DNA from: Pelagomonas calceolata
Lineage: Eukaryota; Sar; Pelagophyceae; Pelagomonadales; Pelagomonadaceae
Assembly (NCBI GenBank): GCA_918797485.1
Contig: CAKKNE010000006.1
Location: forward strand, 3,596,001 to 3,660,000
Length of the DNA: 64,000 nucleotides
Direction of reading: 5' to 3'
Shown piece by piece: positions 4,892 through 58,786 of this stretch (its first letter is position 1; each line of letters starts with the position of its first letter). The position numbers and the translations under genes are program-made. The notes beneath the pieces are model-generated. The model did not search any database. It was given only the letters and a program-made list of their open reading frames with translations, and was not told the origin of the DNA.

Positions 4892-4913
4892 GCTAGTGTC
4901 GGACTACGCTAGC
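4892..4913 (+). promoter_or_regulatory. promoter palindrome, copy 1
   Basis: GCTAGTGTCGGAC-TACGCTAGC: terminal GCTAG/CTAGC inverted repeat. It lies in the 451-base gap between the divergent genes at 4669 (minus, 223 bases away) and 5121 (plus, 208 bases away). Nothing else recognisable is in this gap. The centre GGACTACG is shared with the copy at 47365. Confidence 0.7.
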
Positions 4914-5120
4914 TATCAGAGCTCCGCGCCGCTGTAAACGCGTGCGCTAGTCATCGCCACTGCGCACCACTCCGTCAAACTACAGCTCTATATAAGCCAC
5001 AAGGACCACGCTCGAAAATCTGGTGAGAATCGACGCGGCAGTCACATTTTACGCCCCGCCGCCGCGACGCGCCACAGCGCAACCATAATAACAGCGCGGA
5101 GCGGTAAAACCACGCAAAAG

Positions 5121-7213
5121 ATGGCGACAACCAACGGCAGCCCGTCCATCCACAGCGCACCCTGCGTCGCCCTCCAACTCAAGGCCGCGAGCTGGTCCTC
5201 GGACGCCGACGAAATCTCAGCCTTTGAAACAAGAGCCGCAGAAGCGGCCTCGCGCTTCGGCCGCGTCCTAGATGTGCGACTCGCGAATGGTAGTGGCACC
5301 ACGCGAACTGTAAGAATCTACTTCGCGGACGTCTCAGGAGCCGTCTGCTGCGCCACCCGTTTCACGTGCAACGGCGTGACCCGAGAAAACTATACCTACG
5401 AGAACATGGAGCCGCCGTCCCTAGTGACGTTCCGGGATCTTCCGAAGCCGAAGGACGCGTCGGAGTTGGCGCGAGACGTCGGCGTCGAGTGCGGGGAATT
5501 CGGAAGGGTATTAGACGCGCGATACGTCGACGACACGGTCGTGATCAGCTTCTCCACGCCGTCAGGCGCCGCGGCGGCGTCCATAGCGTTGGATGGGGCG
5601 GCCTTTGACGGGTACCGGTGCGCGGCGTTTTTCGGTAATAAATCAGAAGAGCCGTGCTGTGTCCTGCGAGGGCCCCTAGATGGTATCGATGATGATTTGT
5701 CCCAGATGGAGGTCGTGGGAGATGTCGAGGAGGCCTGCGCGATGCTAGGTGAAGTGCGGAGCGTCTCTTCTAGAGATGGAGCTATCTTGATCGCCTATGA
5801 TGAAAATAGGGGCGCGGCGGCCTGCGCGAGGACGATGCACGGTCGCGTGTTCGACGGGCGGGAGGTGAGTGCGACGGCGGCGCTACGGGGCGGGTATGAA
5901 GCGGAGGCCGAGCTTTGCGCCGCCGTAGTCAATGCATTGGAAGTGAAGCCTCCGGAACGGCCCATCGAGAAGAAGAAGGAGCTCACGAAGGAGGACACGC
6001 TCAAGAAGGCCATCCAGGCCCTGAGGAAGGCCGTGCTAGCGTCGCCGTCCGATGTCCAACTCAGAAACAACCTAGCTGGTGCCCTTACACGTATTGGAGG
6101 AGTGGGAGAACTAGAAGAGGCCTGTCGCCACGCGACCCACGCGACGCGCCTGAAACCGGACGACGCCTGGGGCCACTATAGATTGGGCGTGGCCCGCTTT
6201 CAGAAAGGTGCTGACTCAGTGTAGATTTTGAACTCGAACTTGACGTGGTCGCGTCGATGGCGTCCTCGCGATGCTGCGTCGCCTCGACGCCGTCGACGCG
6301 GCCGCACGAGAGTCTACGCGTCTCGCGAGAGAGTCGCGGTCGTGTCGCGACGGTGTTACTCACAGGTGACGTGGCCAAGGCGCAAACGGCTCTCAGACTT
6401 GCAGCGTCACTCGCGCCCGACCGAGCTGATTTCGCAGAAATAGCCGCGAAGGCCGACGAAGCAGCATTAGCGTTGCTCGACCCGATGGACGCCTTCGCGG
6501 CCCAAGCAGAAGCGGAAGCGAAGAAGGCCCTCGTCGACTCCGAGGCCAAAGCGAAGCGGGAGAAGGAGACGCAGCGGTTCGGCAAAGGTAAAAGAAAGCT
6601 GGAAGACGATAGTGATGACGAGGGCGAGTTGTTGAATGTGAACTCGCGGGCGCATTGCTACATCTGCAAGCAGTGGGGCCACTCCAAGAAGGACTGTCCG
6701 TTAGCGAGGTGTCAATACTGCCATGAAATAGGTCACAGAAAATCAGATTGTCCCTTGTTTACGCAAGCCTTACAAAACGCGGCCGAGGAAGAAAAGAAGG
6801 CTCGGCGCAAGCAGGGCTACGAGAAGAAAAAATTAAGGAGGAAGGAGGAGTGGACGAAGATGCTGCGCGAGCAGACGGGCGTCGACGGCTTCGCGGCGCT
6901 CTACCGTGTCTTGGGGTTGCCTGAACGTAAATTAGCGACTGCCTCGGAGATAAAGAAGGCGTACCACAAGCGCTCATTAGCGTATCATCCTGATAAACAT
7001 CCGGACGATCCGGATGGTGCTAAAGAAAGGTTCCTGGAGATCAAAGCTGCGTATGAGTTATTGTTAGAAGGCATGGAAACGGGCGGGGCGGGCCTGGGCG
7101 GGGCCGTGTTCTCTGCCGGTGAATTGACCGATGCTGCCGCGGCGTCTGCCTTGCAAAAAAAGGTGAAGGCGCTGGAGAAGAAGGTGAAGGCGTCGGCGGC
7201 GTGGAGCGGGTAA
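5121..7213 (+). CDS. tandem RRM/UHM - TPR - two CCHC knuckles - DnaJ fusion protein
   Basis: Two exons (5121-6207, 6366-7213) encode 644 residues. Three RRM-like units resembling the U2AF homology motif come first (about 10-90, 95-165, 180-260; for example ECGEFGRVLDARYVDDTVVIS). Then come a charged KKKELTKEDT helix and TPR-like helices (about 290-395). Two CCHC zinc knuckles, CYICKQWGHSKKDC and CQYCHEIGHRKSDC, lie near 460-491, and a J domain with YHPDKHP near 569 (about 536-596). A coiled tail ends the protein. RRMs and knuckles bind RNA or splicing factors; the J domain recruits Hsp70. Splicing the intron gives QK-GDVAKAQ and keeps the TPR frame. I know no standard family with this order. 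A role as an Hsp70 cofactor for ribonucleoproteins is inference. Confidence 0.85.
6208..6365 (+). mobile_element. introner-like intron, family B
   Basis: Intron of 158 bases with donor GTGCTGAC after CAGAAAG and acceptor TTACTCACAG. It carries an in-frame stop (TAG at 6222) and its removal joins the TPR region. Its core (about 6269-6345: CTGCGTCGCCTCGACGCCG, then GCACGAGAGTCTACGCG) recurs twice, in the host sense, in the stromal processing peptidase intron at 44094-44331. Confidence 0.75.
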
Positions 7214-7385
7214 GTAGTCTTAGTGTCGAAGCGCGGCGGTGCTTCGACGCGTAAGCCGAGGAGTGGCGCGTGCGAGTCTACCTCGTGGGGCTCGCTCGGG
7301 GGGGGCTCTTGGCGAAGGTCGCCGACCCTGATTTTCAAATTTAGCGTCCCCAAAACCGTACTAGCTACTACTTGCGGGACCCCTC

Positions 7386-9137
7386 TCAGTGTGCCTGGAG
7401 CAAAGATTGTCTCTTGCTGTCCCTGGCAAAGGTCAGGACGCGCTTGGTGCCAGCTGTCGCTCGGAACTCGGCGACGATGTCGCTGCCTGTGCGAAGGCTG
7501 CCGCAGTAGAACTCCCGCCCGGGCGCTCTGATGCTGACGAGCCGATCGCCGACCGAGACACGGCCCGCGAGCGGGCTCGACGCCGACACGCTGATGACCT
7601 GGTGTCCGGTGCCGGTCTCAAAGCGGAGTCCGAGTCTCCCGGGCGGCGCCTCGACCTCCACGCCGCCCGGGGGGATGATGCCAACTGATGCCGCCTCGAC
7701 GACCTCGCCCTCCCGGGGTGCTCGGGTGCTAGAGTTCCCGAGCGACGCGAGTTCCGCGCGGCGGTCGGCGAGCTTGCGCGAGTACTCATCTACACTCCCT
7801 GGTTCATCTTCTTGCTTGGCCTTGGCTAATTTGTGCTCAAGTTTTTCTATCTCCTCCAATAAATAAGCCTTGTAGAAAATGAATTTGCGCACGTCAATAG
7901 CCACAAGGTTAAGGATCACCAAAGTTGGGAAGGTCGATGCGGCGACGAGGATCACACCAAACCAGGGCACCTCTGTTGCCAAGGCCAGCGCAACGACTGC
8001 GCATGCTCCGACGATAGGCCCACCGATTGCAAGTGCTTGCCATTTTGTATACTCCAACGCGACTGGCACCATCATGAGCGACATGTTGACGTATAGCGCG
8101 GCGATGGAGAGCACGGTGAACCAGTACAGGCCTGAGGGGCAAGACGAATGGGAGCCAGATATGTCGATGTTGATTGTGATGACCAACCCGAGGATAATCC
8201 ACACCCAATGGATGACGAGCAGGTAGAACGTGACTTGTCTGTGGAACCGTGCCTTCCTTTCATCCTCGGTTCCTTTCAGGAAGATGACGAAGTAAGCCAT
8301 GATGAAAGCCTTCCAGCAAAAGCTGGTCAGGTTCCAGATAGCCAAGCCAAACGGAGCAGCATTGGATGAGCACTTTGAATCGTCGTCCAGGAACACGATC
8401 CCCATCGTCAACTGCGCGATGAGCCAAGCGATGATGGCGCACATTATTCCCTTAAAAATAGGGCTTCCTCCCACGGCTGAAGCTATGACTGTGAGCCACA
8501 GTGGCGCGGTGCGGTCGCCTGGGACAACGGCGAGGGGGCCCAGGAGGCGGCGTTCGTGCCCAACGGCCGAGTGGACAAAGTCGGTGTTGGGCCACGCCAC
8601 GAGGCGGCCTGGGACGACGGGCACCTCGCGCGCAGCCGGGCCAGAGCCGAGCACTAGTGCGCCGTCTCCGCCGAGGTAGACGATGGCGATGTATCCACCC
8701 CGGTAAGCCTCCTTGTTGGCATCCAGCTGCCTGGTGGCATCCAGGCTTTGTGCCCATGGCGCCGCACTCTGGGGCTCGTCCCGGTGCTCCGCGGTGGGGC
8801 CGTGCATGACTCGCGCGGGCAGCCATTCTTGCTGTGGCGCGCCTCCTTCCGTGGCCTCAATGGGGACAAGTCCCAGCGAGGCGTCAATCTCCGAGCGAAG
8901 CCGGTCGGCAACGGCGGGCACGTTGATGAGGAACTGTCGCTTGGCGGGGCAAGTGGCGGTCTGCTGATCGCCGCGCTCTTGTTCGAGGCGGTCTAGCTGG
9001 GTGAGAGCATCAGAAATCTCCGCCTCGTCGAGGAAGTTGTCTACGATGAGAATCCCGGCGGGCGGACGGCTGATGTCGAGCGGCTGCTTCGCCTCGTGTG
9101 TGGCCGCGGCCACGCTGTGCTCGGTCCCAGCGGCCAT
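7386..9137 (-). CDS. 2OG-Fe(II) oxygenase-like / multi-TM / PDZ fusion
   Basis: 583 residues from the ATG at 9137; an upstream in-frame extension to 9344 exists but would run through the promoter palindrome at 9288. The N-terminal domain (about 25-200) opens with IVDNFLDEAEI, as in prolyl-4-hydroxylase-like oxygenases, and has a possible iron triad: HRD near 116 and His in FVHSAVG near 187, with an Arg soon after. Next come about six membrane helices (215-435, e.g. GIMCAIIAWLIAQLTMGIVF), a Lys/Glu coiled coil (about 440-480), and a C-terminal PDZ-like domain (about 500-575, RLGLRFETGTGHQVISV, SPLAGRVSVGDRLVSI). Convergent with the J-domain fusion. Substrate and membrane are unknown. Confidence 0.7.
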   Translation of the reverse strand: MAAGTEHSVAAATHEAKQPLDISRPPAGILIVDNFLDEAEISDALTQLDRLEQERGDQQTATCPAKRQFLINVPAVADRLRSEIDASLGLVPIEATEGGAPQQEWLPARVMHGPTAEHRDEPQSAAPWAQSLDATRQLDANKEAYRGGYIAIVYLGGDGALVLGSGPAAREVPVVPGRLVAWPNTDFVHSAVGHERRLLGPLAVVPGDRTAPLWLTVIASAVGGSPIFKGIMCAIIAWLIAQLTMGIVFLDDDSKCSSNAAPFGLAIWNLTSFCWKAFIMAYFVIFLKGTEDERKARFHRQVTFYLLVIHWVWIILGLVITINIDISGSHSSCPSGLYWFTVLSIAALYVNMSLMMVPVALEYTKWQALAIGGPIVGACAVVALALATEVPWFGVILVAASTFPTLVILNLVAIDVRKFIFYKAYLLEEIEKLEHKLAKAKQEDEPGSVDEYSRKLADRRAELASLGNSSTRAPREGEVVEAASVGIIPPGGVEVEAPPGRLGLRFETGTGHQVISVSASSPLAGRVSVGDRLVSIRAPGREFYCGSLRTGSDIVAEFRATAGTKRVLTFARDSKRQSLLQAH

Positions 9138-9287
9138 GGGCTGGGCGGGGCTGCCCCCGGATTTGGCAGCAAATGGGAGAGCCAGGATTTGCAAAGACGG
9201 ACGAGCTCGGTCGCGCGGGACCGCTGTTCTCTGGGAGCTCTGGAGTAAGCGTTCACAGAGGTAAACAAAGCTGCACCATCGACGAGA

Positions 9288-9311
9288 GCTAGCGGCCTGT
9301 AGGACACTAGG
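9288..9311 (-). promoter_or_regulatory. promoter palindrome, copy 2
   Basis: On the minus strand CCTAGTGTCCTACAGG-CCGCTAGC. It lies between the divergent starts at 9137 (minus, 151 bases) and 9486 (plus, 175 bases) and so supports both start choices. Confidence 0.7.
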
Positions 9312-9485
9312 AATGGCACAGCAAGTTTTGCAGGCCAGCCACACACGCGCAGCCGTGCGACGAGGGGGCCTAGACCACTCTTTTGATCGATTTCACTGTG
9401 CTTTCCACGCGTTCGGCAATTGGAGCAGCATTTAAGTACAGCATGGTTGAGCAGTAGGAGACTGCCAGCACAGCACTGCAAACAA

Positions 9486-10921
9486 ATGCGGGACGACGAG
9501 GAAACCAGCGCGGCATCGAAACCACCACCGCAGCAAGCGAGCTGCGGCGCCCGCCACCTCATCGTGACCCTCGCCTTCACGACGAGTTGCTGTTTGAGTG
9601 GCGTCGTCTTCGGCTGGCCGGCGCTCGCCGTCGCGCTTAAACGAGAAGGCGCCTACGCCGACAAATGTGCCGACGACGACGACGAATGCAAGTCGCAGGA
9701 GGTGGCGCTCGCGCGCGTCTTCACGATCGGTGTGCTATGTATGTTCGGGGCGCGCCTGCCCGTGGGGTTAGCTCTGGACAGATTGGGAGCCCGGGTCACG
9801 GTCGTCATCACATTGCTAGGCGCGGCCATCGGAGCGTTACTGTTCGCCTCCAAATATTACGCCGTGGGGTTTGCGCTGATCACGGGGTGCGCGAACGGCG
9901 TGCACGTCGGCTCGATGCACCTCGCGCAGCTCTTTTCGGGACGGGAGGGCTCGGTGACGACGATCTTCAATGGGGCGCACCAGATGGGGTCCCTTGTTTT
10001 TTTGGCCTTCCTCGGGATCTATGGCAGTGGCGTCTCACTATCAAGTATCTTCCGGGGCTATGCGGCGTGTCTGGCGGGCTTCGCTCTGTTGCATGGTTGC
10101 GTGATTCAACCATCAACACGATACCGCAAGGGCGACCACGTATCGCTCACGTGTGCTGTGCCGTGCTTGCGGGCCCACCAGTCAGTTGATGAAGAAAACA
10201 AGCCCGGCTTCGTCGCGTCGGCAAAAGCTGTCATCAAACACACCGTGTTCGTACCGTTGCTGGCGTACAAGGCCACGATCTTGCTGAGTCTGCAGTTCTT
10301 CGTCGCTATGTTACAACCGCGCTGAGCGGAAGACGGCCGCGCTCCATCAATCGCGCGGGACATGGTCATCATCTTCAACGTCTTTTCAGCGGTATTGGGA
10401 CTGGTCGTGGGCCTGCCGGTCTTCGGCCGCATCCTCGACCGCGGCGACACGATCACGGTGTCCCGCTGCGCGACATTGTTAGCCGTTATCTACGACTGCT
10501 TACTCGCGTTGAGCACTGTGTGGAATCTGCACGCCATCGTCGATGGGGCGCCCCAAAAAATAGATTTCCACGCAGGCTGAGCGACGCCCTGGCCTGGCCT
10601 CTGCTCTATGATATCCCGTCCTACGGCGCCTGGGCGTTGGGACGCATGGCCTTCTTCGCGTACTTCTTCGCGCACGTCCTGAAGACGTTCGAGGGCAACT
10701 TCGGCGTCGCCGTGGGCCTGCTGTCGTTCGGCGCGAGCGTCACGGCGTTTTTGATCGTGCAGCCGCTCGCGGCGGTGGCGTTGCGGGAGGACAAGATTGC
10801 GGTCGTGTCTGCGGCGCTGATACCCGTACTCCTAATGACGTGCGCGTGGAACGAGCGGGCGATGCGGCGGCACGCCGCGGCGACGACGGACGACGCCCCG
10901 AGTCGCGGCGATGGCGTATGA
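9486..10921 (+). CDS. SLC43-like major facilitator transporter with in-frame TGA
   Basis: Two exons (9486-10507, 10576-10921) make a 12-helix MFS protein of about 455 residues. TM1 contains TTSCCLSGVVFGWPALAV, and the MFS loop ARLPVGLALDRLGARV is clear. The layout fits the SLC43/FMP42 group of amino-acid-type transporters. The frame is interrupted by TGA at 10323-10325, right after TM7 (LSLQFFVAMLQPR). The same frame continues through EDGRAPSIARDMVIIFN into TM8, so both sides look coding. Only a 39- or 45-base intron from the GT at 10288 would skip it, and that would delete conserved TM7. Recoding, polymorphism or a sequencing error remain possible. Exon joining at the 68-base introner gives LLALSDALAWP. 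Confidence 0.75.
10508..10575 (+). mobile_element. introner element, family A (68 bases)
   Basis: Target duplication GTTGAGCA (10508-10515) / GCTGAGCG (10576-10583), 6 of 8 matching. Element ends CTGTGTGGAATC and GATTTCCACGCAG, with an inner CGCCATCG-TCGATGGGGCG inverted repeat. Donor GT is the first two bases of the left duplication, acceptor AG the last of the element. Confidence 0.8.
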
Positions 10922-11035: not shown

Positions 11036-11040
11036 CTCCT

Positions 11041-12525
11041 CTAGTTCGCGAGGACCATGCCCTCGACCTGCGACTGGTTCGCAGCAGCAATCCCCTTGGC
11101 GCGCTCCTCCTCCTTCGCCTTCGCTTCTTCCGGGTGTTCCGCGGCGTGCAAGTCCTGGTGGTAGACGCGCGACGCCTTGAACCACGCGTTCGGGTGATTA
11201 CCCACTCCATCTAAATTGGCCACGACCTTCTTGCCGTTGACGGTCTGCTTCTTGTGCGCGAACTCGAAGTGGCGCTGGCAGGCGATCTGGTAGTTGCGCT
11301 CCTTGGCCTTGCCTAATACTAGTGACTGCTCTCCGGCATCCAATGAAGTCTTCGACAGCACCGCCGCGAGGTGATCCGCGTCGAAGTGGCGGTAGGGGCA
11401 GCCGTGGTACTCGCCCGGGCCCGGCGCCATGTCCATCACTAATTTATAGCAGCCGTACGGCGAGTACTCAGTTCTTTTACCTTCTTTCCCGTAGCGGTGG
11501 CGAATATTATAAGCATACTCCTTGCTGAACTGGTCGTGCGTCATGATCTTCGTGAACTCGGCCTGGAAGAAGCGCAATTGATCTTCCATGGACAACCCAG
11601 CGGCCTTGAGGAAGAGGCCGTACTGCTGGCGGCCCCAGTGCTTTAGTTTATGATCTCTCTTCAACGCGTAGTGCAACTGCTGCATACATAAAGGCATGGA
11701 CTGGTCCGCCAGGGCGTCGATCTGCTCCGGCGTGATGCCCTCTATATCATCATCATCCACATCTTGGCGTTCCAAGTCGTGTTTCTCGACGTTCGTTAAC
11801 AGTGGACCAAGTCTAGGGTCGGCGGCCGCGGCCGCTAGCGAGCCGGAGGCTTTCGCTAGGGAGCGAGAGAGTGACGCTCTGAATCTAGATACGACGATGC
11901 TATGTAATTTCGCTTGAGGAACATAAGCGTAGCCCTTCTCCAAGTATACTTCTCTCCGCCCTATCAAGTCAATGGCTTCCAAGAAGGGCACGCGATAGTA
12001 CGTCGCCGTTTGAGCTGGTACGTTCTCGTAGTTCTTGATCCTCGCCAACGATGTCACGCGAGCGTCTCGTTCGCTGTCGGGCACTTCTTCGAACCTGAGG
12101 CCGTGCTCGCGCAGGAAGCGCGCGAAGCCGTCTCCTCTCAAGCGGCTTAAGCGGTGCCTGAAGAGCGCACATTCTTGCGTGAGGAACCACCTCCGCAGCT
12201 CCTCAGAACGGGAATACGCTAGTCTCAAGATAAAGTGCGAGACCGAGTCTTTCCTCGCGTCCGACGGGGCCTGCGGTCCTGCTGATGCTAATGGCAGGAG
12301 TTCGCGCACGACAGGCGCCAACTCGGCCTCGAGCTCCTTGGGCTTGAAGCCCTTCTGGCGCAGCGCGTCGATTGTCCTCAGTACTTTGAGGCGGTCCACA
12401 GCGAACACCTCGAATTCTTCCAGCGTCATCTCCTCGCGGGGCGGCTTCTCGTAGAGGGAAACGGTGACGCGCTGGGACGGCGCCGCAGAAGCGCGCGCCG
12501 TGCTGCGGCGGTTGCCGACGAGCAT
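11041..12525 (-). CDS. PRIM2: DNA primase large subunit
   Basis: 494 residues, typical PRIM2 length. The C-terminal iron-sulfur domain is clear: GRQQYGLFLKAAGLSMEDQL, EYAYNIRHRYGKEGKR, YSPYGCYKLV, EYHGCPYRHFD and YQIACQRHFEF. The four cluster Cys are near residues 278 (PLCMQQL), 358, 375 and 415. The N-terminal half has the YRVPFLEAIDLIGRREVYLEKGYAYVP helix region of the family. It partners the catalytic primase and polymerase alpha to start RNA-DNA primers in the nucleus. No intron is needed. It is divergent from the gene at 12885 and convergent with the SLC43-like gene. Confidence 0.95.
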   Translation of the reverse strand: MLVGNRRSTARASAAPSQRVTVSLYEKPPREEMTLEEFEVFAVDRLKVLRTIDALRQKGFKPKELEAELAPVVRELLPLASAGPQAPSDARKDSVSHFILRLAYSRSEELRRWFLTQECALFRHRLSRLRGDGFARFLREHGLRFEEVPDSERDARVTSLARIKNYENVPAQTATYYRVPFLEAIDLIGRREVYLEKGYAYVPQAKLHSIVVSRFRASLSRSLAKASGSLAAAAADPRLGPLLTNVEKHDLERQDVDDDDIEGITPEQIDALADQSMPLCMQQLHYALKRDHKLKHWGRQQYGLFLKAAGLSMEDQLRFFQAEFTKIMTHDQFSKEYAYNIRHRYGKEGKRTEYSPYGCYKLVMDMAPGPGEYHGCPYRHFDADHLAAVLSKTSLDAGEQSLVLGKAKERNYQIACQRHFEFAHKKQTVNGKKVVANLDGVGNHPNAWFKASRVYHQDLHAAEHPEEAKAKEEERAKGIAAANQSQVEGMVLAN

Positions 12526-15580: not shown

Positions 15581-15723
15581 GGTGCTCAGGTGCTGTGCGC
15601 GGCAGCCCCGGGCCGCAGCGTTGCTGCCTGGGGCTCGGGAGGCTCCGAACCACTCGGAACAGGCGCGAACTGGCACGCAGGGCACTGTAATGGCTGCCCA
15701 AAAGCAAGCTTGCTGCTGGCTTT

Positions 15724-15746
15724 CTAGTGTCTTACTTGCCGCTAGC
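15724..15746 (+). promoter_or_regulatory. promoter palindrome, copy 3
   Basis: CTAGTGTCTTACTTGC-CGCTAGC, preceded by T instead of G. It lies between the divergent starts at 15580 (minus, 144 bases) and 15976 (plus, 230 bases). The remaining gap shows nothing else. Confidence 0.7.
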
Positions 15747-15975
15747 GCACGCCATTACCCCAAAGCCAAAAGAGCTTCGCTGGTGGCTCATTGGGACTGA
15801 TTCTGGTGCGAAGAATATTGCTTTTAACTGCTTACAGCGCACGGCGACGCACGCTGCGTTCCATTGTGTTCCCGCACACCTAGAGCCACTGCTGCAGCAT
15901 CGCTCCTTGCCGCCGCACGCGCACGTATACGCGTGGAGAAAAAACGCCAGCGCCGGACGCGACCGACGCGGCAGG

Positions 15976-17751: not shown

Positions 17752-17949
17752 GGTTACAAACGATTTGTGCGGCTTGCAATGGCTCCCGCAGTCTTTTTAC
17801 CAGTAGGTCCTTATTTCGAACTTTGAGCCTCTGCGGCGCCGAAGGAATGGCTTCGCTGGACTGGAGTACTGCAGACAAGTCCTGCGTAAATTCAGGAGTG
17901 CGTAGGAGAGGCTGTCGCAGCGATCAAGCAGCCAAAGTGCGGCTGGCTT

Positions 17950-17971
17950 GCTAGTGTCTTACAGCACTAGC
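17950..17971 (+). promoter_or_regulatory. promoter palindrome, copy 4
   Basis: GCTAGTGTCTTACAG-CACTAGC; arms GCTAGTG/CACTAGC are a perfect 7-bp inverted repeat. It lies between the divergent starts at 17751 (minus, 199 bases) and 18152 (plus, 181 bases). The rest of this 400-base gap shows nothing else. Confidence 0.75.
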
Positions 17972-18151
17972 CCTTGCTCGGCAGCAAAAGTATACTACCC
18001 TCACGCCACCGGCCACAGGAAGCGCAGACCCGCAATCGATAAATAAATTGACGCGGCAGCCCTGCCGCAGCGTTTCGAAGAGTACTCCGCGCAGCCAGGA
18101 GCTTGGGCTGTCCCAATCTAAGCCCTAGCGCTAGGCGCAGCGCGAGGCGCG

Positions 18152-31851: not shown

Positions 31852-32005
31852 TTCGAGACGTCAGCGCTAATGAAAGCCCGATTGCTCACGCGCACCAACA
31901 ACAGAGGTATCCAGGAGCACAAAGATGCACGATGAAGCCGTCTAGGTGCGTCTGTGATGCGTGCAGGAGGCACAAAAAAGCTGACACACAATGTCATCCG
32001 CGTCT

Positions 32006-32029
32006 GCTAGTGTGTTACAGTACGCTAGC
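32006..32029 (+). promoter_or_regulatory. promoter palindrome, copy 5
   Basis: GCTAGTGTGTTACAG-TACGCTAGC. Between divergent starts at 31851 (minus, 155 bases) and 32320 (plus, 291 bases). The remainder of the 468-base gap contains a short tandem CTGCACACTGGGCTGCACACTG near 32164 and nothing else recognisable. Confidence 0.7.
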
Positions 32030-32319
32030 GCCAGCTGGTCCTCGGAGCTCCAAGCGGCGGCGTTGCGAGGAGCCCGGCTGTTATCGGCACCACTAGGCAT
32101 TGCTGTCGTCCACCGCGAAAATTTGCTGCAGAACTGTGGTTCGCCATCGTCGCTGCAAACCGGCTGCACACTGGGCTGCACACTGTGCTTCACGCTTCCG
32201 CTGCGCAAGACGCAGCATTTGTCGGAAAGGCACGTGCGCGATCAGCGCACGGATCGCTGCAACGTATCGTGCGTGAATTGAGAGCTCACGCGTGACGACG
32301 TCGCTGCATCGCTGCACCG

Positions 32320-33171: not shown

Positions 33172-33284
33172 CTAATGTATGTTGTGTTCTGTACTTTGTT
33201 CGTTAAAGCCCGCGCGCGGTGAGACGCTTCGAGAAGGTACCGCCCCGGGGCGCGGCTTCCAGGGCTCCCGCGTTAGAAATCCGC

Positions 33285-33308
33285 GCTAGCGGCTGTAAAG
33301 ACACTAGC
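33285..33308 (-). promoter_or_regulatory. promoter palindrome, copy 6
   Basis: On the minus strand GCTAGTGTCTTTACAG-CCGCTAGC. It is 145 bases before the start at 33453 and downstream of the same-strand lipase, so it belongs to a single, non-divergent promoter. Its position argues against using the longer frame from 33219. Confidence 0.7.
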
Positions 33309-33452
33309 AAGAAAATCTCGATTCCTCACAGAGCGCCCCCGGAGAAGAGCGGTCTGCTGCCCCCTTTGGACGCCGAGACGCGCTTCGTCCAGAGCAGGCT
33401 CTCCCTTGCTCAGCCTCCACGCCATTTGATCACCGTCGAGCAGTCCCTCAGC

Positions 33453-36386: not shown

Positions 36387-36634
36387 TTTATATTCCGCAG
36401 AGATGCGTCGACTGGCGTCTCGCGGCGGGTGTTTGACCGTCTATAGACGCGCCGGCAGCGTCGCGCAGCGGCCCTCGAAGGCTCGAGATAGCCTGGCTGC
36501 CAAAAGTTGTGCGACGGGCGCCCACACGCAGCTGGCGTCTCCCGTGGGGTGAGAGACCGTACAGCGAATGCGCTAAAGGCCTGATATAAGTGCAAGCAGC
36601 ACCAAACGCCTGTCCGCGCTGTGTTTTTGTGCTT

Positions 36635-36656
36635 GCTAGTGTCTTACGACGCTAGC
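36635..36656 (+). promoter_or_regulatory. promoter palindrome, copy 7
   Basis: GCTAGTGTCTTACGA-CGCTAGC. Between divergent starts at 36386 (minus, 249 bases) and 36783 (plus, 127 bases). The remaining gap shows nothing else. Confidence 0.75.
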
Positions 36657-36782
36657 TCGCGCCCAGAGCAAAAACGCTCTTGCTGCCCACAGTCGTCGTG
36701 AGGAGTCTATATCGAGACGCATCCTTGTAGTGCACCCCTTCGCAGCGTCGCCACCTAATTTTCAAGAGAGCTGCTCTCCCAC

Positions 36783-39277: not shown

Positions 39278-39373
39278 GAATTACAGATCAATGCGGCTGC
39301 TTGGCACCCCTGCGAGGCTGCTGCACAGCCCAGGCTGCTTGCTCAGCCTCAGCAGCTCAGGCTGTCTAGGCTC

Positions 39374-39397
39374 GCTAGTGTCTTACAGACCGCTAGC
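39374..39397 (+). promoter_or_regulatory. promoter palindrome, copy 8
   Basis: GCTAGTGTCTTACAGA-CCGCTAGC, closest to the consensus. It is 97 bases upstream of the COX16 start (minus strand) and on the other side faces the 3' end of the BspA-repeat gene, so it serves one direction only. Confidence 0.75.
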
Positions 39398-39543
39398 CGC
39401 GGGCGCCGCGCTGCGGATAGTGACATATCATATCCCTTCGATAATAGTCAATAATTAATTAGTTTGTCTGCTCCGCGCGAAGGGAAGGGCTTGCGGGCGA
39501 CGGGAGGGGCCAAGACGCGGGTGGATGCCGGGGGCTGCTCGAC

Positions 39544-40430: not shown

Positions 40431-40627
40431 CGCGCCCCAAAAAAGGTGTACCTACGCTGCGGTCATCCGCGCGCCGCCCGGCTCGGGGTGCGGGAGCTAG
40501 GGGCAGCGCGAAGCTGCAGCGCGGCGCGCGCCGGGGTAAGGGGGGGGGGCTCAACTTACGCGTGCAAGCAAGCGGCGTGGACAGCTCTTCAAAGCTTCAA
40601 CGTTGTGGGCAGCTCCTGAGGAAGCTT

Positions 40628-40652
40628 GCTAGTGGCTTTATAGGCCGCTAGC
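40628..40652 (+). promoter_or_regulatory. promoter palindrome, copy 9
   Basis: GCTAGTGGCTTTATAGG-CCGCTAGC, 198 bases upstream of the BspA-repeat start at 40430 (minus). The upstream neighbour is on the same strand and ends at 40709. Confidence 0.65.
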
Positions 40653-40708
40653 ACGGATTTCCTAAACCGCGGGCGCCCAGCTTGCCACGATCAAAACACA
40701 CACACTTT

Positions 40709-41704: not shown

Positions 41705-41979
41705 TGCTTCGCGGCGATGGCGTCTCGCCGTGAGCGTTGCGAAATGTTGCCTCGTGTGTCGCTGCGATGGCGTGCGGCGGTGGCACCTACAGCCCAGCGC
41801 GAGCGATGGCCTGACCGCTGAGTAAGGCCTAGCTTGCAAAGCCTCACAGCAACCTCGGAAGTGCAGCGAAACCGTCTCTTCAGCAGGATTGATGTTAGTA
41901 GTCTCCCGCACGCAGCTCGGTTGTGTCCAGTAGCCGCTAAAATGCCGCTGGCGTGTCGTGCAAGCACGCGCACGCGCTA

Positions 41980-42003
41980 GCTAGCGTCCGGTAAGCCACT
42001 AGC
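41980..42003 (-). promoter_or_regulatory. promoter palindrome, copy 10
   Basis: On the minus strand GCTAGTGGCTTACCGGA-CGCTAGC, with an extra GCTAG overlapping its right end. It is 276 bases upstream of the dioxygenase start at 41704. The rest of the 562-base gap up to 42266 is GC-rich with runs of G (e.g. 42164-42190) and no gene. Confidence 0.7.
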
Positions 42004-42266
42004 AAACTCTCGCTCCCCTACCCAGCTTGATTTCGGCCTCGTCGTAAGAAAGGAGCCAGCGGCCAGTTCCACATCCTGATGGGGGGCGTCCCGAAAGAGG
42101 GGGGGCGTGCGAGTCCATGCGACTCAGCCCTTGCGTCCTAGACTCCTAGTCCAGCCGGACGGGTGGGCCCGGGGGGAGCGGGAGGGGTACGGGGGACCCT
42201 GCGACGTAACTAGCCTGAGCCTGGCGTAGAATATTCAATCAACTTTTTAGAAGGGAAGGAGACGAA

Positions 42267-47096: not shown

Positions 47097-47107
47097 CGCT
47101 CCGTAGC

Positions 47108-47218: not shown

Positions 47219-47364
47219 GGGAGCCTCAGAGGCTGTAAACGCTCCTTTCCGGCTACGCCGCGAGTCCGCAGGCGTGCGCGGGGTGAAGCAGCGGTTCTCT
47301 GGACTGCCCGGTGAGTGCGAGCCGGTCTTTTAGCCGCCAGAGAGACGAGCTGGCAAAGCGGCGG

Positions 47365-47386
47365 GCTAGCGTAGTCCCCCACTAGG
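47365..47386 (-). promoter_or_regulatory. promoter palindrome, copy 11
   Basis: On the minus strand CCTAGTGGGGGAC-TACGCTAGC. Between divergent starts at 47096 (minus, 269 bases) and 47549 (plus, 163 bases). More diverged in the centre than most copies, but close to the copy at 4892. Confidence 0.55.
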
Positions 47387-47548
47387 ACAAGCTCTGGTTT
47401 TTAAGCAGTCGACAGTTTTGCACGTGGTGGGTTATAGCTTGTTCACTGTTGCTGCATATTCACTGCTTATTTTAGCGTTACAACGCATCGGCATCCGCTG
47501 CACTGTTAGAGTTCAACGCGCCACCTGCGACTCGAGTAGTCAGCAGCA

Positions 47549-50099: not shown

Positions 50100-50141
50100 G
50101 CAGCGAGCCGCTTCGTTCGTGTGTAATACTATTCAATAATA

Positions 50142-50681: not shown

Positions 50682-50803
50682 GGGTCGATCCTCTGTATCG
50701 AGGCGCTGTCTCCTCGATCTATGATCGATTATGCGCCTTTTCTGGCAGCAATAATGCCCAACAGAGCAGCTATGTGGCACCAAACTAGCTCGGCTGCGAG
50801 CTA

Positions 50804-50826
50804 GCTAGCGCCAGTAAGACACTAGC
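50804..50826 (-). promoter_or_regulatory. promoter palindrome, copy 12
   Basis: On the minus strand GCTAGTGTCTTACTGG-CGCTAGC, with an overlapping extra GCTAG. Between divergent starts at 50681 (minus, 123 bases) and 51022 (plus, 196 bases). Confidence 0.75.
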
Positions 50827-51021
50827 AAGAACTAATTTTTGTACCTAGAAGCCAAACCAAAGCGAGAAGTCGCGGTATCGCAAGCGAACCAACTGGCGAC
50901 CGCCCGTCCTCCTGGGTTCTCTCATCGCCTGGCGCTCATCAGATCATTCTCTCGCGCGGCCGGCGCGCCATCTGGAGTCCGTCCGGATTCAGGGAGAGGA
51001 CTCACAGGAGACAATCTACCA

Positions 51022-51429: not shown

Positions 51430-51433
51430 TAAT

Positions 51434-53324
51434 TTATTTATACCCCGCCTCGGCCACCATCCGCTCCCGTCTCCCTCGAAACTTGTCCAGTTCCCGCAAC
51501 GCCGACTGTTTCTGCTTGAACACGCCCCTTTCGACCAACAACAGTTCGGACATTTTGGCGGACCGCGCCTTGTCGGGATGGGGAATGCCCCCATAATCAT
51601 TAACATGGTACAGGCTCATGCCGAACTTGTTCTTGTACCTCAATGAGACTTGTAAGAGATACCCTCTAGTAGCGACCTCTTGGGAAGGCATCAGCGCCGT
51701 TTTCAGGCAGGGTCTACTCCTTTTCACGAGTTCATCATCATATGATAGTAGTCTTTCAGGCTCCCACAGCGCGACGTTGACTATTTGTTGGTCCGTGGCC
51801 GGCGTGATGCCTCGCACCGACGGCACGTTCGGTCCCCTAAACACGCCTCCCCTCATACCCTTTGCGGCCGCTGTTGCCAAACCAACAGCTTCGAAGAGGT
51901 GCCGTACTGACTCACAAACTCGTAACACAATAAACCCCATGTTGCGGTGCAAACTATGATCATCTTCCCGCTGGAAGACCGCGTCACAGTTCGGTCCACA
52001 CCGCTCCAGCGCATCATCGACCAAATCTGCAATTTGTGCTGATGCGTTGCCAAAGAACCGCACATCAATCTCCGTTATAATAGCATATGTATTATCAGGT
52101 TGGGAGTCCATGGCCTCCTTGATGAGGGCGATCTTCGACCCGAAGCGCTGGGCCATCGTTTTTTGGGGCCCATCTAGCGTGCTTTCGCGCGGGACGACTC
52201 GTTTCGAATTGGTCAGTAAACTACCAAGAAACAGGTCGGCCATCTCCCTTGAACCAGGGTCGCTATGGGCCGAGTAGTAGACGGGGTACTCGCGCTGTAC
52301 TCTCCGGGCGCCGGCGGCGTTCCTCAAGTATAGAGCAAAGTCGTCGGCGCCTGCGTAGGAATTGTCACGTCGATGGCGTGGCGGTGCGGGTCTCTCGCCG
52401 CTCGGACGCGACGCCTGCTCGACGGCGTGGCGGTTGATTTCCACACCGGTCGGCGCCGAAGGCCTTCCTCAGAGTTTGTTCATCAAAGGCCTTGCCGATG
52501 ATAGAAGCGCCGCGAACACATCCTGTTAGTAATTGACCAATAGGTACCCTGGCAGGAGCGTCGTGCAAGGCCAAAGCGCCCGCGCCACCGTCGAAACCGT
52601 CTCCTTCCACACCTTGTACAAGGGCCTCCCGTCGACCATCGACCCACACTTCTAGTGTGGATGTTGTATCCGATAAAACCCGTCGGATAGCGGCAATGTC
52701 GTGCCATTTCTCATCAAATAGCTTTGAACGACCAGACGCCGTCGCTTCCCCCACGGCTCGCACCGTGTTCTGGGGCACGCCCCGCTTCTCACTTCCATAG
52801 ACCCTCAAACCGGCGCCGAAGTGGACCGAGCCATCTTCAGCGAGGGATATGCCCCAGTCGGCCCTCGCCCCTGCTCTTCGCGCCGCGGAAAGCTTGCGCT
52901 CAGCGTCGCGCATCTCGGGCGTGATGGGCCTGACCGAAGCCGCGGCCCGCAACTGCGCGAACCGCGCTTCGCTCACGAACTTTCGTCGTTCCTTCATCGC
53001 GCCCGTCGACCAGGCCGGCCCCGGGGCGGTCGCGGCGACGGCGTTTAATAAAGAACAGCCGCGCGCGTACCAGGGGGCCGTACTATTGTAGCCGTAAGCC
53101 CCAGGGACGGCCTTCCGGCAGCCGCTCGCTTTGATGGAGGCGAAGGCCGTGAACGAAGATAGTGACGCGCCGCTCCCGTCCGCGAAAATGCGGGCGTGGC
53201 CCTCGGCCGCGTAGCAGTCCGTCGTCGGCGGACGCGGGAAGTAGGGCCTGAGCTCCTGCGTCGTGTCGGCGGGCCGGCCGGTGAGCGCCTGGGCTGCTGT
53301 TGCCAGCCACAGCATCAGATGCAT
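51434..53324 (-). CDS. secreted LamG-like / glycosyltransferase fusion
   Basis: Two exons (53324-52457, 52350-51434) give 594 residues. Signal peptide MHLMLWLATAAQALTGRP. The N-terminal half (about 20-285) ends in a lectin/LamG-like segment: WGISLAEDGSVHFGAGLRVY, KWHDIAAIRRVLSDTTSTLE, VWVDGRREAL. The C-terminal half is glycosyltransferase-like: ADDFALYLRNAAGARRVQRE, NTYAIITEIDVRFFG with a DxR/DxD-like site, CDAVFQREDDHSLHRNMGFI and NVALWEPERLLSYDDELVKR. It probably modifies glycans in the Golgi. Family placement of the transferase is tentative. Confidence 0.65.
52351..52456 (-). mobile_element. introner element, family A, GC donor, perfect duplication (106 bases)
   Basis: Sense GCGCCGAC on both sides (plus-strand 52449-52456 and 52343-52350). 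Left end CGGTGTGGAAATCAACC, right end decayed (CAATTCCTACGCAG), inner GCCACGCC(A/G)TCGA repeats. Splicing at the GC restores FG-ADDFALYL. Confidence 0.85.
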
Positions 53325-53802
53325 GGGCTGCCCCGGCTGCATCCGCATCGATGCTGTATCTATGCGGCCACCATCGATGGCTGACGAATCAGTTCCGTGC
53401 TGCCCTTGGGCGTTCGCAGCAGCGCTCAATTAATGCGAAGCCCGGCCGGCAGCCGCCTCGACAGCGTGCGGGGTGGGGTGCCCGGATTCCCCTCAAGTTC
53501 GAAGAGAAGTAGCTTTAGGACTCGTCCCGCGCACCACGCACAGCTATTCCATCTATAACAACCAAACGACTCTCGAGGCAATGCGATGATGCAGATGCCA
53601 TTGGCGCACTATTATAGAGCGCACGAGCAGCCATTGCTCTAACTCACACGCTCATATAGCATCTAACGAGGCGGCATTACTCCACACACGTTGCAAGTAA
53701 CCACTGCGCCCGTTTCACTAGCACAGCAGTCCTGCACAGCACAGTGCATCAGCTGCAAATCGTAAACCGCGGCGCAAATATTGCATCAAATCGCGGTAAA
53801 CG
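53325..53802. other. divergent promoter region without palindrome
   Basis: 478 bases between 53324 (minus) and 53803 (plus). Somewhat AT-richer than its surroundings. CACTAGCAC near 53717 is a single half-site. Nothing else recognised. Confidence 0.35.
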
Positions 53803-54747
53803 ATGCTGCGCATCACCGCAACACTGGCGCTGGCGCGTGCATTTGCTGCAAATGGACCGCGTAAGCTGCGCGCGATCGCATTAGACCTCGACGGCACGTT
53901 GTGCAACAGCGCCGGCGTCGTGACGGACGCGACCGCGGCAGCGCTCGCGGCGTTCGATGGCACCATCATCATCGCCACGGGACGCGGCAAATCGCACGCT
54001 GCTGGTATCGCGAGCGACTTACGCAAACGCGGCGCCATCGTGGACGCGCTGGTCTGTTCCGACGGAGCCGTCGCCTACGCCGGCGACGCGTTCGACGAGC
54101 TAGTATTTGAGCGCGTCGCTGTTGGCTCTGTTGTCGCCGAGTCGCTTCGAGTAATCGCCGACGCCGTGCCGGGCGTGTCGTTCGGCGCGGAGATCAACGC
54201 CGCCGACGGAATTGCGGTCTCCAGCCAGACATACCTCGACACGATCGAACGCTGCAATCCCTATTTTTTCGAGAAAATGCTCAGCGGCAAGAAACCGGTC
54301 GACGACTTCTTCGCCACGGTCGCGGCCGCGGAGAGAGTGAACTGGGTCCGGTGCATCGGGGTCGGGGAGGACGACGGCTCCGGTAACTTACTGGCGGCGG
54401 TGCGCGCCGTCACGCCGGCGGGCCTCCGCTGCGAGCCGTCGACAATTCAATTACCGGGCGGGCCCGAGTCCGTCATCGTGAAACCGGACACGAGCAAAGC
54501 CGTGGGCATCGAGGCCGTCGTCGCGAGCCGAGGCATCGGGCCGGAGGAGGTCTGTGCGTTTGGCGATGCCGAGAACGACCACGACATGCTCTCCTGGGCC
54601 GGCTTTGGTGTAGTACCGTCAAATGCGCGGGACGGGGCGAAAGAGAGAGCTACATTCGTCTCCAGCCTCAGCAATGACGAGGATTTTATCAAAGACGCGC
54701 TCCAACGACCCCTCGCGGAACTTAGGAGAGAGTATACAACACCATAG
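53803..54747 (+). CDS. Cof-type HAD-IIB phosphatase with presequence
   Basis: 314 residues. Leader MLRITATLALARAFAANGP resembles a signal peptide with an AF-type site, so organelle targeting is likely. HAD motifs: I, ALDLDGTLCNSAG (Asp nucleophile near 28); II, IIIATGRGKSH; III, VIVKPDTSKAVGIEAV (Lys); IV, CAFGDAENDHDMLSWAGFGV near 252. The IIB cap (about 85-200) is present. Such enzymes dephosphorylate sugar phosphates or pyridoxal phosphate. Convergent with 54772. Confidence 0.88.
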   Translation: MLRITATLALARAFAANGPRKLRAIALDLDGTLCNSAGVVTDATAAALAAFDGTIIIATGRGKSHAAGIASDLRKRGAIVDALVCSDGAVAYAGDAFDELVFERVAVGSVVAESLRVIADAVPGVSFGAEINAADGIAVSSQTYLDTIERCNPYFFEKMLSGKKPVDDFFATVAAAERVNWVRCIGVGEDDGSGNLLAAVRAVTPAGLRCEPSTIQLPGGPESVIVKPDTSKAVGIEAVVASRGIGPEEVCAFGDAENDHDMLSWAGFGVVPSNARDGAKERATFVSSLSNDEDFIKDALQRPLAELRREYTTP

Positions 54748-54771
54748 GTTAGTCTGCGAATTGTTGCCCGC

Positions 54772-57700
54772 TCAGAGGGCAATGATCTTCTGGCCCCGTT
54801 CACCGAGAGACGTCGCCGTCAGGAAGACGAAGTTGCCCGGGTAGGCCGTCAGTAGAGCCCGTAACGGTACGGACTTGACGGTCACCGGCAGCTTGTAGAC
54901 GCCGCGTAAATACGCTCTAATCTTGTGTAACGTCGAGGCCTTGGGAGCTTGCGCGCGCATACAGTCCAAGACGCACTTTATTATCGGCGCGTCATCCCTG
55001 GAACAGGGCCAGGCTTGCGTCGGCGCGTAGCCGTCGGCCGTTAAGAGCTCCAGTTGCCTTGCCACGCCTTCGGTAGGGGGCGCTGGAAATAAACCAGGAT
55101 CCTTCGGTATGAGAGATGACGGAGCCCCGGGCTGGATGTTCGGCTTCCCGATGGGCGCGTGCTCGATGGTGCGCGGCGGTTCTATGGTCGTAGTGGTCGG
55201 TCCTTGAGGACAAAAAGAAGGTGCTGCGGCTCGGAGTTCCCCGCCGCCCTGGTTGATGTCATCAGCGGTCGAATGTTCCAGGTAAACCACATCGTTCTTC
55301 GGCACCCAGAGTATTCTCACGTTCGCCATCTTTGACCTCCTATCGAGTTCTAAGAAGGTCAACAACCCGCCATGCGTCGCTTTGACCCTCGCTAGCGTGT
55401 CCATGCCCACGCGTTGGATCAAGGCATTTCCGAGATCGACAGCAGTCAAAGCCTTGTCCGAAGCGGTAGTCAATATATCGACCACATTCCTAATGACGTT
55501 CTCTTCATCAGCCGGTGAAGAGGGCTCCGTGACTTCGACTTTAACGGGGTGCGTGGGCTTCAGCGGTCTTGCATCTTCGGGTTGGGGCTTCGCCGCCTCG
55601 CCGCAGACCGACACGTGGTTCATGGGCCGGTCGTGGTGCATGCGAAAATGCGTCGGGAACCTTTCCAGCAAACCTCGTAACCCGTCAAAATTCGTCTTGA
55701 TCACCGCGTACGTCTCGGGATCTTCGGCCTTGCACACGTCGCCCAATCTTGCGGACTGGGCCTTGCCACCGAGCTGCCGGATGACTCGCGCGAGGAAATC
55801 AACGTACGGTTTTGCTGAACCGAGATCCGCACTTTCTTTCGCCTCGTCAAGAGCTCTCGTCACGTTTTGGAGGGAGAAGCTGTCGTTGGATGAAGACGGC
55901 GGCGGTAAGGAAGCTACGGCCGTTGTTAATCTCTTGGCGTCCTTCGCCTCGAGCCCTGCTTCGACCAGATCGTCGGCTTTGAGGAGTGGGAGGGTGTCCT
56001 CATCAATATCTTCGTTCGCGAGTAAGGGAGCTACCTGTTCTAATCCTATTCGTTTCACTAGAGCTTGTATACCACCCAATCGTCTTAATGTCTCGCCGAT
56101 GCCACCCCCGGCCAGTGATCGAGCTGTTTCTAGATCAGTAGGAGTATCTATCTCGACGCAGCCCATGCCCGTCACGTCGATCACCCGCATATCCAGTCGA
56201 TCATTATCGACCAATGACGCGTGGAAGGCGTCTTCGTAGTAGTCTTGATCAGAGGCGTTCTCCAGAAACAAATCTAACTGTGCCTCTCCAAATGACTCCC
56301 CAGTGATAGAGTACAACCCGACGCACTCGCCCTGGGCGTTTGGCGGCACCTGCTTGCCGATGGCGATGACCACATCATCATCAACATGGGCGCGCACCGC
56401 CTCGGCGTCGTCGCAAGAAAATTCTAGGGGAGAAGGCCTCGCAACCGCGGCACAGGTCCCCGGGAAGCGCGCGACGGCGTCGAAGGCGCCGTCTCCCACT
56501 AGCAAATCGCCATCAACTAATAAGAATCCGGTCTGTGCTAGAGCTGGTACCGCTCTCACCGCGCAAAGTAGACTCTTGGCCGTATTTGTATTACTATACT
56601 CCTCATTCGAAATGATGGCCGGCTTCGGTAGACCCACGGCAGCGCAGGCCTCCCTGCAATGGTCTGCGACTTTTTCACTTTCGTAGCCGACCACAACCAC
56701 CAAAGCTCGAACAGCATTTCTTTTAGCGTGTCGACACAACCGTTGGAAGATGGAGGCGCCGCCCACATCCACACAACACTTTGCGCCGAGTCCTAACCTA
56801 GAACCGATGCCCGCACATAACACCACGAGGTAGTCGGAAGCTCTAGGTACAGAGGGCGCCGGCGGCCACTGCGCCGCGAAGTACTGGGCGTGGTTCGCCG
56901 ACGTGCGTTGGTGCGTCGTCACGCGGACACCTAAGCCTGCTAGCGGGCCCTTGTCGACGTAAGTGGCCATGAAGCCCCCGGCGGGCGCTATCAAGGTATT
57001 GCGAGGTGGTAGGGGTACGAACAACCCCTCCGCCGACTCGCCGACGCCGATCCACCGTCGATAGCCCTTGGCGGCTAGTAGAGCATCCAACAAGGGCCCG
57101 TTCGTGTCATTCGCGCGGCCGCCCATGGATCCCGTATGGCCGAGCCCGAAAACACCCAACTCGACACCATTACTGGTACAAGCGTGTCTCAGTGATCGTT
57201 GAGGTCCACTGCCACCTAGATCGGCCTCCGCCGCTGCGACGGCCACGAACCGACAACCTCGTGCCTTGGCGGCTTCGACGCAAGCGTTCGCGTCGATCGA
57301 AGCGCCCCAGCCCACTTGGTATCTATATATAATAGCGTCGGCGAACTCCGACGACAAAGCTTCCCCTCTAGGCCCGTTCGACGCCACGAGGACCGCTTCC
57401 AAAGGAGGCGGTGGTATGCCTTCCTTCCGCGCTAGAATGGCGAGCTTCGTCTTCAAAACTGCCCTATCATGCGTCGACGACGAGCGACGACTGCGAGAGA
57501 AGGGCATGACGGGCTTGTAGTGTTCCTCGCGCAGCGGTTGTTTTCTTTTTACGGCAGAAACTTTATGCTCGGGCCCATGGGCGTCGGGCTCGACGTAGTA
57601 GACCTGTGTGGAAGTCAAATTTCGGGCGCCCCACGCCATCGACGCGATGCTGTCTCCGTAGCTGCGGCGGCTCGACGGCGTGGAGGTTCACGAAGATATC

Positions 57701-58551
57701 CTCACTCGATGCTTGATTTCCACACCGTAATAGACGGCCATGCAGTCCTCGCCGAAGGCTCGTACCACATAAGATAATGGTTTCGGCGGCATCGGTACGT
57801 TCTTGAGGGGCCCGAAGTTCGTATTGGTCCACGTGTCTTCATTTCGTAAAATCACTTCTCTCGGCCACCTTCGGATAGCCAACCCAGCACCTCCTCGTCG
57901 ATCGAGCTCGCCGAAGTGATACAAGGGCCACGCATCACTTGGTAACGAAGCGCAGAATTGCGTAGCTCTTTCTATTTCATCTGTGGCTTGCGGCTCGCCG
58001 TTTCGCTTTGTTGATACTGCTTTTCTCAGCTCATCAAGTGACGCGTACTCCACGAGTAAAAAGACGTCGACCCAGGCCTTTGGCGACGACTTGTGTCTAA
58101 TGCGGTCCCACGGTAAACCTTTTCTGCCACCCGCATCTTGGTAGTAGGCTCCCCTGATAGCTTTAAGAGCGCCTCTCGCTTTGCCCACATTCGGCCTTCC
58201 AACAATCGCAATATCGATATCGTCATCACAGAATAGAATCGACTCGGACCGAATGGCACCTAAGGCGCTGCCTCCGGTCAACGTCCACGGGACGTTGGCG
58301 CCTTCCAGGGCCTCTTGGACCCATCCAAGCAATTCATACAGGGCGTCGACCTCCTTGTTGCGCAACAAGACGGGCGCCGGGCCGCGTGCCGGCGGTCTCT
58401 GTCTACTCCGGTCGTAGGGGGGCGTCGGCGGCCGCTCCCTTCTGGAACGCTCCGGGGGCGCGGGTGCCTGCTCGGCGCTGCCGCGTTGGTACCCCCGGGG
58501 GGAGACGCGACCATCCGAGGCCCGCCCGGGGGGTGGGGGCGGCCTCCTCAT
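54772..58551 (-). CDS. LicD-like / LicC-like / SAM / winged-helix fusion (1215 residues)
   Basis: Two exons (58551-57736, 57603-54772). Residues about 62-270 are LicD/fukutin-like nucleotidyltransferase fold: VPWTLTGGSALGAIRS, ILFCDDDIDIAIV. About 300-520 is a domain I cannot place. About 528-760 is a LicC-like nucleotidyltransferase: YLVVLCAGIGSRLGLGAKCC, FLLVDGDLLVG, MGCVEIDTPTDLETA. A SAM-like domain (about 788-835, QVAPLLANEDIDEDTLPLLK) and three repeated winged-helix, LOTUS-like units (about 845-920, 965-1030, 1120-1205) follow. In bacteria LicC activates choline phosphate and LicD transfers it to glycans; a single protein doing both is inferred. The SAM/LOTUS-like part could bind RNA or partners. 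Confidence 0.72.
57604..57735 (-). mobile_element. introner element, family A (132 bases)
   Basis: Sense duplication GTCTATTA / GTCTACTA (7 of 8). Left end CGGTGTGGAAATC, right end GACTTCCACACAG. Splicing gives CMA-VYYVEPDA. Its right 40 bases are the reverse complement of the left part of the element at 36143. Confidence 0.85.
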
Positions 58552-58761
58552 GCTGTCTTCTGTCTGTGCGAGCGCGCGCGCCGCTGAGAGGCTGTGAGAG
58601 GCTCCCAGCGAGAGCTGGGCAGAGAGCAGTGAGGTCACAACCGGTGCCAGCAACTTGCGCCGCGGGCCTCAAATTTCAAAATGGCTGTCCGTGATAATTA
58701 CTGCGTACCAATAACCTCGGCTGGTGGCCGGCGCCCAAGAGTGGTCCTTGCTCGAGTGCTT

Positions 58762-58786
58762 TCTAGTGTCTTACCAGGACGCTAGC
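58762..58786 (+). promoter_or_regulatory. promoter palindrome, copy 13
   Basis: TCTAGTGTCTTACCAGG-ACGCTAGC. Between divergent starts at 58551 (minus, 211 bases) and 58931 (plus, 145 bases). Confidence 0.75.

Follow-up and report, generated by a model that had tools for sequence, protein, structure and literature searches.

Sites of the yeast protein Abf1, one of the general regulatory factors (GRFs), are bipartite and polar, whereas the Inr, FPR and DPEP core promoter elements of oomycetes occupy fixed places around the start and point in one direction. The GRFs were defined through nucleosome-depleted sites (PMC2897762), and the sites of Abf1, Reb1, Cbf1 and Rap1 lie upstream of many unrelated genes, are direction-independent and are typical of promoters common to divergent genes; the oomycete elements, from another group of stramenopiles, were detected by motif over-representation (PMC3599244). 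Here, we describe an element of the pelagophyte alga Pelagomonas calceolata that shares these features of the GRF sites and was likewise recognized by over-representation. It was first seen in a stretch of 64,000 nucleotides (hereafter the window) from assembly GCA_918797485.1 (contig CAKKNE010000006.1, here C6, 3596001-3660000). It differs from the yeast sites in being much longer (~30 bp, 34 bits) and in its flexible spacer, and from the oomycete elements in being direction-free, in lying 100-350 bp from the ATG and in its unrelated sequence. Among promoter elements, it stands out for its unusual length, polarity and elasticity, and it also serves a retroposon as target: a short repeat, TE1, resembling a short interspersed element (SINE), inserts within the motif carrying its own copy of it, which is new here. 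By analogy with the GRFs, we propose, at a probability of roughly 0.55, that the motif is a putative site, built of two parts and with an internal polarity, of one host DNA-binding factor, or of two cooperating ones, acting in GRF-like fashion at bidirectional promoters.

The sequence searched was the P. calceolata assembly of 32,445,274 bp in 8 contigs (6 nuclear, plastid and mitochondrion); the RCC100 genome of this alga has 16,667 genes (PMC9481584). Positional statistics come from an unbiased sample of 204 kb, consisting of the window and 14 random 10-kb genome pieces (140 kb), and the control for exact genome-wide counts was the same pattern read backwards. All 13 copies listed by the first-pass annotation of the window were recovered at their positions and strands, and CTAGTGKCTTAC with up to 2 mismatches matches 16 times in the window versus 3.96 expected from shuffles. 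The genome-wide scan for CTAGTGKCTTAC-N2-7-GCTAG that the same annotation had suggested yielded 2,126 exact copies (control 0), divided 1,070/1,056 between the strands; given these even totals, a strand bias on contig C1 is only apparent. The left half alone, CTAGTGTCTTAC, is present 2,364 times (control 1) and the arms alone, CTAGTG-N8-11-CGCTAGC, 3,222 times (control 6). A profile made up of two blocks and a variable gap between them, applied at a threshold of 8 bits, gave 41 matches in the 204 kb and none in the reversed sequence. Removal of opposite-strand duplicates and weak matches left 33 sites; the random pieces (140 kb) account for 20 of these, from which the genome total is estimated at ~4,600 (Poisson range roughly 2,800-7,100). 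In the searches with complete lists, the copies are confined to the six large contigs. A scan of viral contigs returned 6 matches, which we take as chance: the viral sequences concerned are unrelated and poorer in GC, and the outer consensus is absent from all of them. Literature searches with the motif letters and for pelagophyte promoters found no description of the motif, only stray short-string matches in unrelated papers, and the words promoter and motif are absent from the P. calceolata genome paper (PMC9481584) and from a 2026 physiology paper.

The consensus of 75 aligned copies is GCTTG-CTAGTG-TCTTAC-N-(C/A)CGCTAGC-T or, with the spacer written out, GCTTG-CTAGTG-TCTTAC-N0,2-5-CGCTAGC-T, ~30 bases in all; the conserved block exceeds the earlier description by 5 bases on the left (GCTTG) and by 1-2 on the right. 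That description held the outer arms to be strictly kept, as is nearly true of their CTAG cores: the left one is invariant in 33/33 unbiased sites and the right one shows a single change, amounting to 1 substitution over 8 positions x 33 sites, while inner and outer positions vary (in TCTTAC, 3-6 of the 33 sites differ at each position). Its 3-6 variable bases before the right arm, on the other hand, have to be replaced by a spacer between TCTTAC and CGCTAG of mostly 4 bases, then 3, 2, 5 or 0, with length 1 almost absent. Despite the palindromic look of its arms, the motif is strictly polar, as had been supposed from the window: genome-wide, the TG...CG combination occurs 3,222 times, TG...CA 36 times and CG...CG 17 times, making the symmetric, fully paired forms ~60 times rarer. 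The two halves are also unlike each other, with a left block of 17 bp and a right block of 7-8 bp at flexible spacing. Of the first-pass reading, a polar promoter element of DNA is supported; a symmetric dimer as the binding factor is unlikely, as the halves differ. The 17-bp left block, 8-bp right block and elastic spacer instead suggest, from their sequence, one protein with two tethered DNA-binding parts or two proteins. The information content after spacing entropy is ~34 bits, an upper estimate, since sites of this very kind went into the profile, versus 13.8 bits needed for 4,500 sites. Linkage among the variable columns (n=55) was seen for 1 of 15 pairs at p = 0.008 and for none after correction, as expected under site-by-site selection.

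Gene models were derived with a 3-periodic Markov hidden Markov model (HMM), for which the window and the random pieces served as training sequence. By these models, none of the 28 copies found in the unbiased sample by regular expression is coding, though 78% of the bases are (p = 2.7e-19), nor is any of the 33 sites by which the profile counts the motif in the same 204 kb. The even spread over coding DNA that the first-pass annotation had named as fatal to its proposal is thus not seen, and its statement that no copy falls in a coding exon is borne out. Sixteen of the 28 copies are in divergent regions, 11 in tandem gaps and 1 at an edge. Expressed per intergenic region, 44% of the divergent and 15% of the tandem regions hold a copy; 0/36 convergent regions do, in agreement with the earlier observation, but these total only 3.8 kb and make the absence a weak test. 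Within divergent regions, the copies are central (median relative position 0.50; Kolmogorov-Smirnov p = 0.005): the gene facing the left arm is on average 210 bp away and that facing the right arm 215 bp (Wilcoxon p = 0.82). Copies in tandem promoters have the same orientation as the gene in 13 cases and the opposite one in 13, bearing out the claim from the window that both orientations occur. A copy lies within 500 bp upstream of 42/122 unbiased gene starts. For the 107 starts with a copy at that range, the median distance to the ATG is 219 bp (interquartile range 166-280; 5-95% 99-355 bp). The distances extend beyond the 100-290 bp first noted, up to ~480 bp.

These measurements bear on three other ways of understanding the motif. 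An initiator-like core promoter element that sets the transcription start itself would also be present in thousands of copies and only at promoters. Judged by the distance to the ATG, though, the spread is broad, no fixed distance or direction to the transcription start was found, and a polar motif that is indifferent to gene direction and at equal distance from the two members of a divergent gene pair is unlike the Inr-, TATA- and DPE-types with their fixed direction and place; we regard this explanation as quite unlikely. The even use of strands and a long, polar, CTCF-like information content could instead befit a site of chromosome organization (a boundary or insulator, replication origin or cohesin-type site) merely located between genes, but a density of about one site in 7 kb, with a copy at 44% of divergent promoters, is high for origins, and the absence of convergent sites and the strict relation to start codons make such a role very unlikely. 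Least probable is an RNA hairpin in 5' leaders, formed by pairing of GCUAGUG with CGCUAGC around a variable loop: the T/G mismatch would be a wobble in the RNA of one strand, and the loop length does vary, yet both orientations to the gene are equally frequent, compensatory stem changes are wanting (36 and 17 paired variants versus 3,222 with T/G) and an Rfam search of the window gave no match. The first-pass preference for a DNA element over an RNA hairpin is in line with the 13/13 orientations, the absence of coding copies and the ~60-fold rarity of paired arms.

What is found at these promoters is the pattern expected of a GRF site, namely presence at many promoters of unrelated genes (42/122 starts) independently of direction (13/13). 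By Pfam family, the genes flanking the window copies are functionally mixed, including SH3/ZNF598, U-box/FHA, ABC transporter, Mob1 and MFS-like members, and such unrelated families imply that this is no small regulon. We propose that the putative factor or factors act at several thousand promoters whatever the gene direction, most commonly from one site common to two head-to-head genes and mid-way between them. By analogy with the yeast GRFs, the bound factor would hold the common promoter open and fix the flanking nucleosomes, and from the open promoter both genes could start transcription, one on each side, so that a host protein, through its effect on chromatin and expression, might benefit the two together. 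Several points weigh against this proposal. CpG profiles around the motif, used as a proxy for nucleosome phasing, are without nucleosome-like phasing or periodicity; the information content exceeds the requirement of a single binding protein 2.5-fold, as could result either from two factors or from copying, with descent in common; remnants of TE1 adjoin the right flank of 2-4 of the 28 unbiased copies; and the gene models are our own, from a single-sequence HMM. Pelagophytes are among the most numerous marine eukaryotes, and one element at about a third of gene starts would offer a direct handle on how their expression is organized, as well as a defined bait for finding its putative factor.

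Two families of dispersed repeats, TE1 and TE2, came to light when flanks were compared; each bears the motif at one of its ends. TE1, with 40 or more scored copies, begins at the motif and continues CGCGCGGGATTTCCTAAACGCGGGAGCCCTGGAAGCCGCGCCCCGGGGACGGGATCTCCTCAAACTGGCTCATTGCCGAACTGACTCATC, its far end being variable at about 100-290 bp. Target duplications of 14-16 bp accompany it (25 copies examined): they are exact, at 16 bp, in copies L075 and L086 (TGCGGCCTGCTTGCTA, GCGCCTTGCTTGCTAG), show one or two differences in L079, L082 and L088, and are weaker in L083 and L087. In L075, L086, L079, L082 and L088, the right duplication leads directly into a second, different motif copy; hence, the insertion point is inside the motif, at GCTTGCTA(G)|TG, i.e. 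GCTTGCTAG|TG, and TE1 and its target each end with a whole motif. Since the duplications include the resident motif's own GCTTGCTAG, the resident motif is older than the insertion. A long motif variant, CTTACCTGTAAGTACAGG, is accounted for by TE1, being the form in which that repeat carries the motif. On C1:575888-575946, two same-direction motif copies stand 37 bp apart with CGCGCGGCCTGCTTG between them; the pair looks like a TE1 insertion shortened to barely more than its motif.

Duplications at a defined target, together with one end fixed at the motif and one variable, are what target-specific SINEs and retrotransposons without long terminal repeats (non-LTR) display, and by analogy with target-specific long interspersed elements and SINEs they suggest target-primed reverse transcription. 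Like the target-specific non-LTR elements and their SINEs (R2, Utopia; PMC5035012, PMC4640811), TE1 has a single short target, target duplications, a truncated variable end and target-like sequence at its fixed end; the targets of the R2/Utopia type are mostly multicopy RNA genes, whereas TE1 enters a promoter motif. For TE1, no partner with a reverse transcriptase was found, no genome-wide search for one having been made. Within the same algal class, TE1 can be compared with the pelagophyte introner elements (PMC9860276), which are also short, dispersed and mobile. Introners, however, create introns within genes, with 8-bp target duplications in Aureococcus, while TE1 and the motif are intergenic; the duplications of TE1 measure 14-16 bp, and it lacks a pair of inverted repeats. 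Introns of ~210 bp have been noted in P. calceolata (PMC9481584).

The relationship with TE1 raises the question of whether the ordinary copies are themselves insertions, that is, remains of a tiny mobile element, such as a strongly truncated TE1/TE2-like end preferring open promoter DNA, with host function absent or secondary. The motif does stand at one end of two dispersed families, TE1 inserts with target duplications, and a 30-bp site could hardly arise thousands of times through point mutation; excess information is consistent with copying too. Moreover, 4/28 unbiased copies have a TE1-like right flank above the 99% control level, 2 of them clear (33286 and 40629 in the window), as against 0/28 for the left flank. 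Against this, the flanks of most copies share nothing outside the motif, and target duplications are absent from ordinary copies (2.48 versus 2.41 in shuffled pairs), being present where TE1 enters resident motifs; the earlier worry that duplications might betray a transposon footprint therefore applies only to the latter. Nor do the ordinary copies have the subfamily structure with linked variants (n = 55), or the flanking target-site duplication, of miniature inverted-repeat transposable elements and transposon footprints: inner positions vary where both CTAG arms do not, with no column linkage of the repeat-subfamily kind. The motif was resident before TE1, and a bare footprint model is unlikely; we consider descent of the copies from such an element rather unlikely as a whole. 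Spread of the motif itself by copying or retroposition is possible and would account for the excess information.

The site proposed for a host factor is also the insertion target of TE1, which carries the motif at that end and so leaves an intact motif on both sides. We tentatively raise a further scenario, itself somewhat unlikely, in which a retroposon lineage and a promoter element of the host have become interlocked: the former would insert only in the motif and supply its own copy, sparing the promoter, and past copying would have helped to build genome-wide, near-identical 30-bp bidirectional sites for a lineage-specific factor. If true, targeting and re-creating a promoter motif would give a mobile element an unusual means of persisting in a compact genome while leaving genes unbroken.

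TE2, with 40 or more scored copies among 179 candidates, is a dispersed repeat of at least 528 bp whose end is the right arm of the motif with inner GTGTCGAT(T/A)TACG. The copies L065:1-528, L064, L066 and C2:744640-745100 terminate on one side precisely in a motif variant whose inner part is GTGTCGATTACG; the three TE2 copies examined adjoin gene 3' ends or non-coding DNA, not promoters. A class with inner GTCRAT (class B), considered as a second regulatory class, is only partly upheld, as many of its ...GATTACG or ...GATATACG copies are the TE2 end.

Divergent promoters contain nine of the 13 copies in the window, the number of head-to-head cases first reported. With distances to the two flanking genes, these are 4888..4914 (+; CTAGTGTCGGACTACGCTAGC, an inner variant; 224/209 bp), 9287..9315 (-; CTAGTGTCCTACAGGCCGCTAGC; 152/176 bp), 15719..15747 (+; CTAGTGTCTTACTTGCCGCTAGC; 156/231 bp), 17946..17972 (+; CTAGTGTCTTACAGCACTAGC, with the rare CA right arm and one of the 36 symmetric sites; 200/182 bp), 32002..32030 (+; CTAGTGTGTTACAGTACGCTAGC; 156/292 bp), 36631..36657 (+; CTAGTGTCTTACGACGCTAGC; 561/252 bp), 47364..47390 (-; CTAGTGGGGGACTACGCTAGC, an inner variant of 17.9 bits; 270/164 bp), 50803..50830 (-; CTAGTGTCTTACTGGCGCTAGC; 157/212 bp) and 58758..58787 (+; CTAGTGTCTTACCAGGACGCTAGC; 212/242 bp). 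The copy at 39370..39398 (+; CTAGTGTCTTACAGACCGCTAGC) is upstream of a minus-strand gene and that at 41979..42007 (-; CTAGTGGCTTACCGGACGCTAGC) is in a tandem promoter. The copy at 33284..33312 (-; CTAGTGTCTTTACAGCCGCTAGC) is part of a TE1 remnant, its right flank scoring 77 against TE1 (99% control level 21); the remnant of this SINE-like repeat, at 33228..33281 (-; listed as C6:3629220-3629297), directly adjoins the copy of the motif at 33286 and is 87% identical over 55 bp to TE1 copy L069. The copy at 40624..40653 (+; CTAGTGGCTTTATAGGCCGCTAGC) has a short TE1-like right flank (score 36). A fourteenth palindrome, CTAGCGAGCC...TTTCGCTAG at 11835-11859, was rejected as chance; it is within the coding open reading frame 11041-12525(-) and lacks the TG arm.

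A second word, CGATGGCGT / ACGCCATCG, is also over-represented at promoters, with CGATGGCG seen 53 times versus 4.8 expected in 67 kb of non-coding DNA from the window and other loci; its position relative to start codons is not clear-cut. At 200 predicted gene starts, the sequence just upstream of the ATG is A-rich and T-poor (A 0.36 and T 0.08 in the last 4 bases), which is likely a translation-start context.

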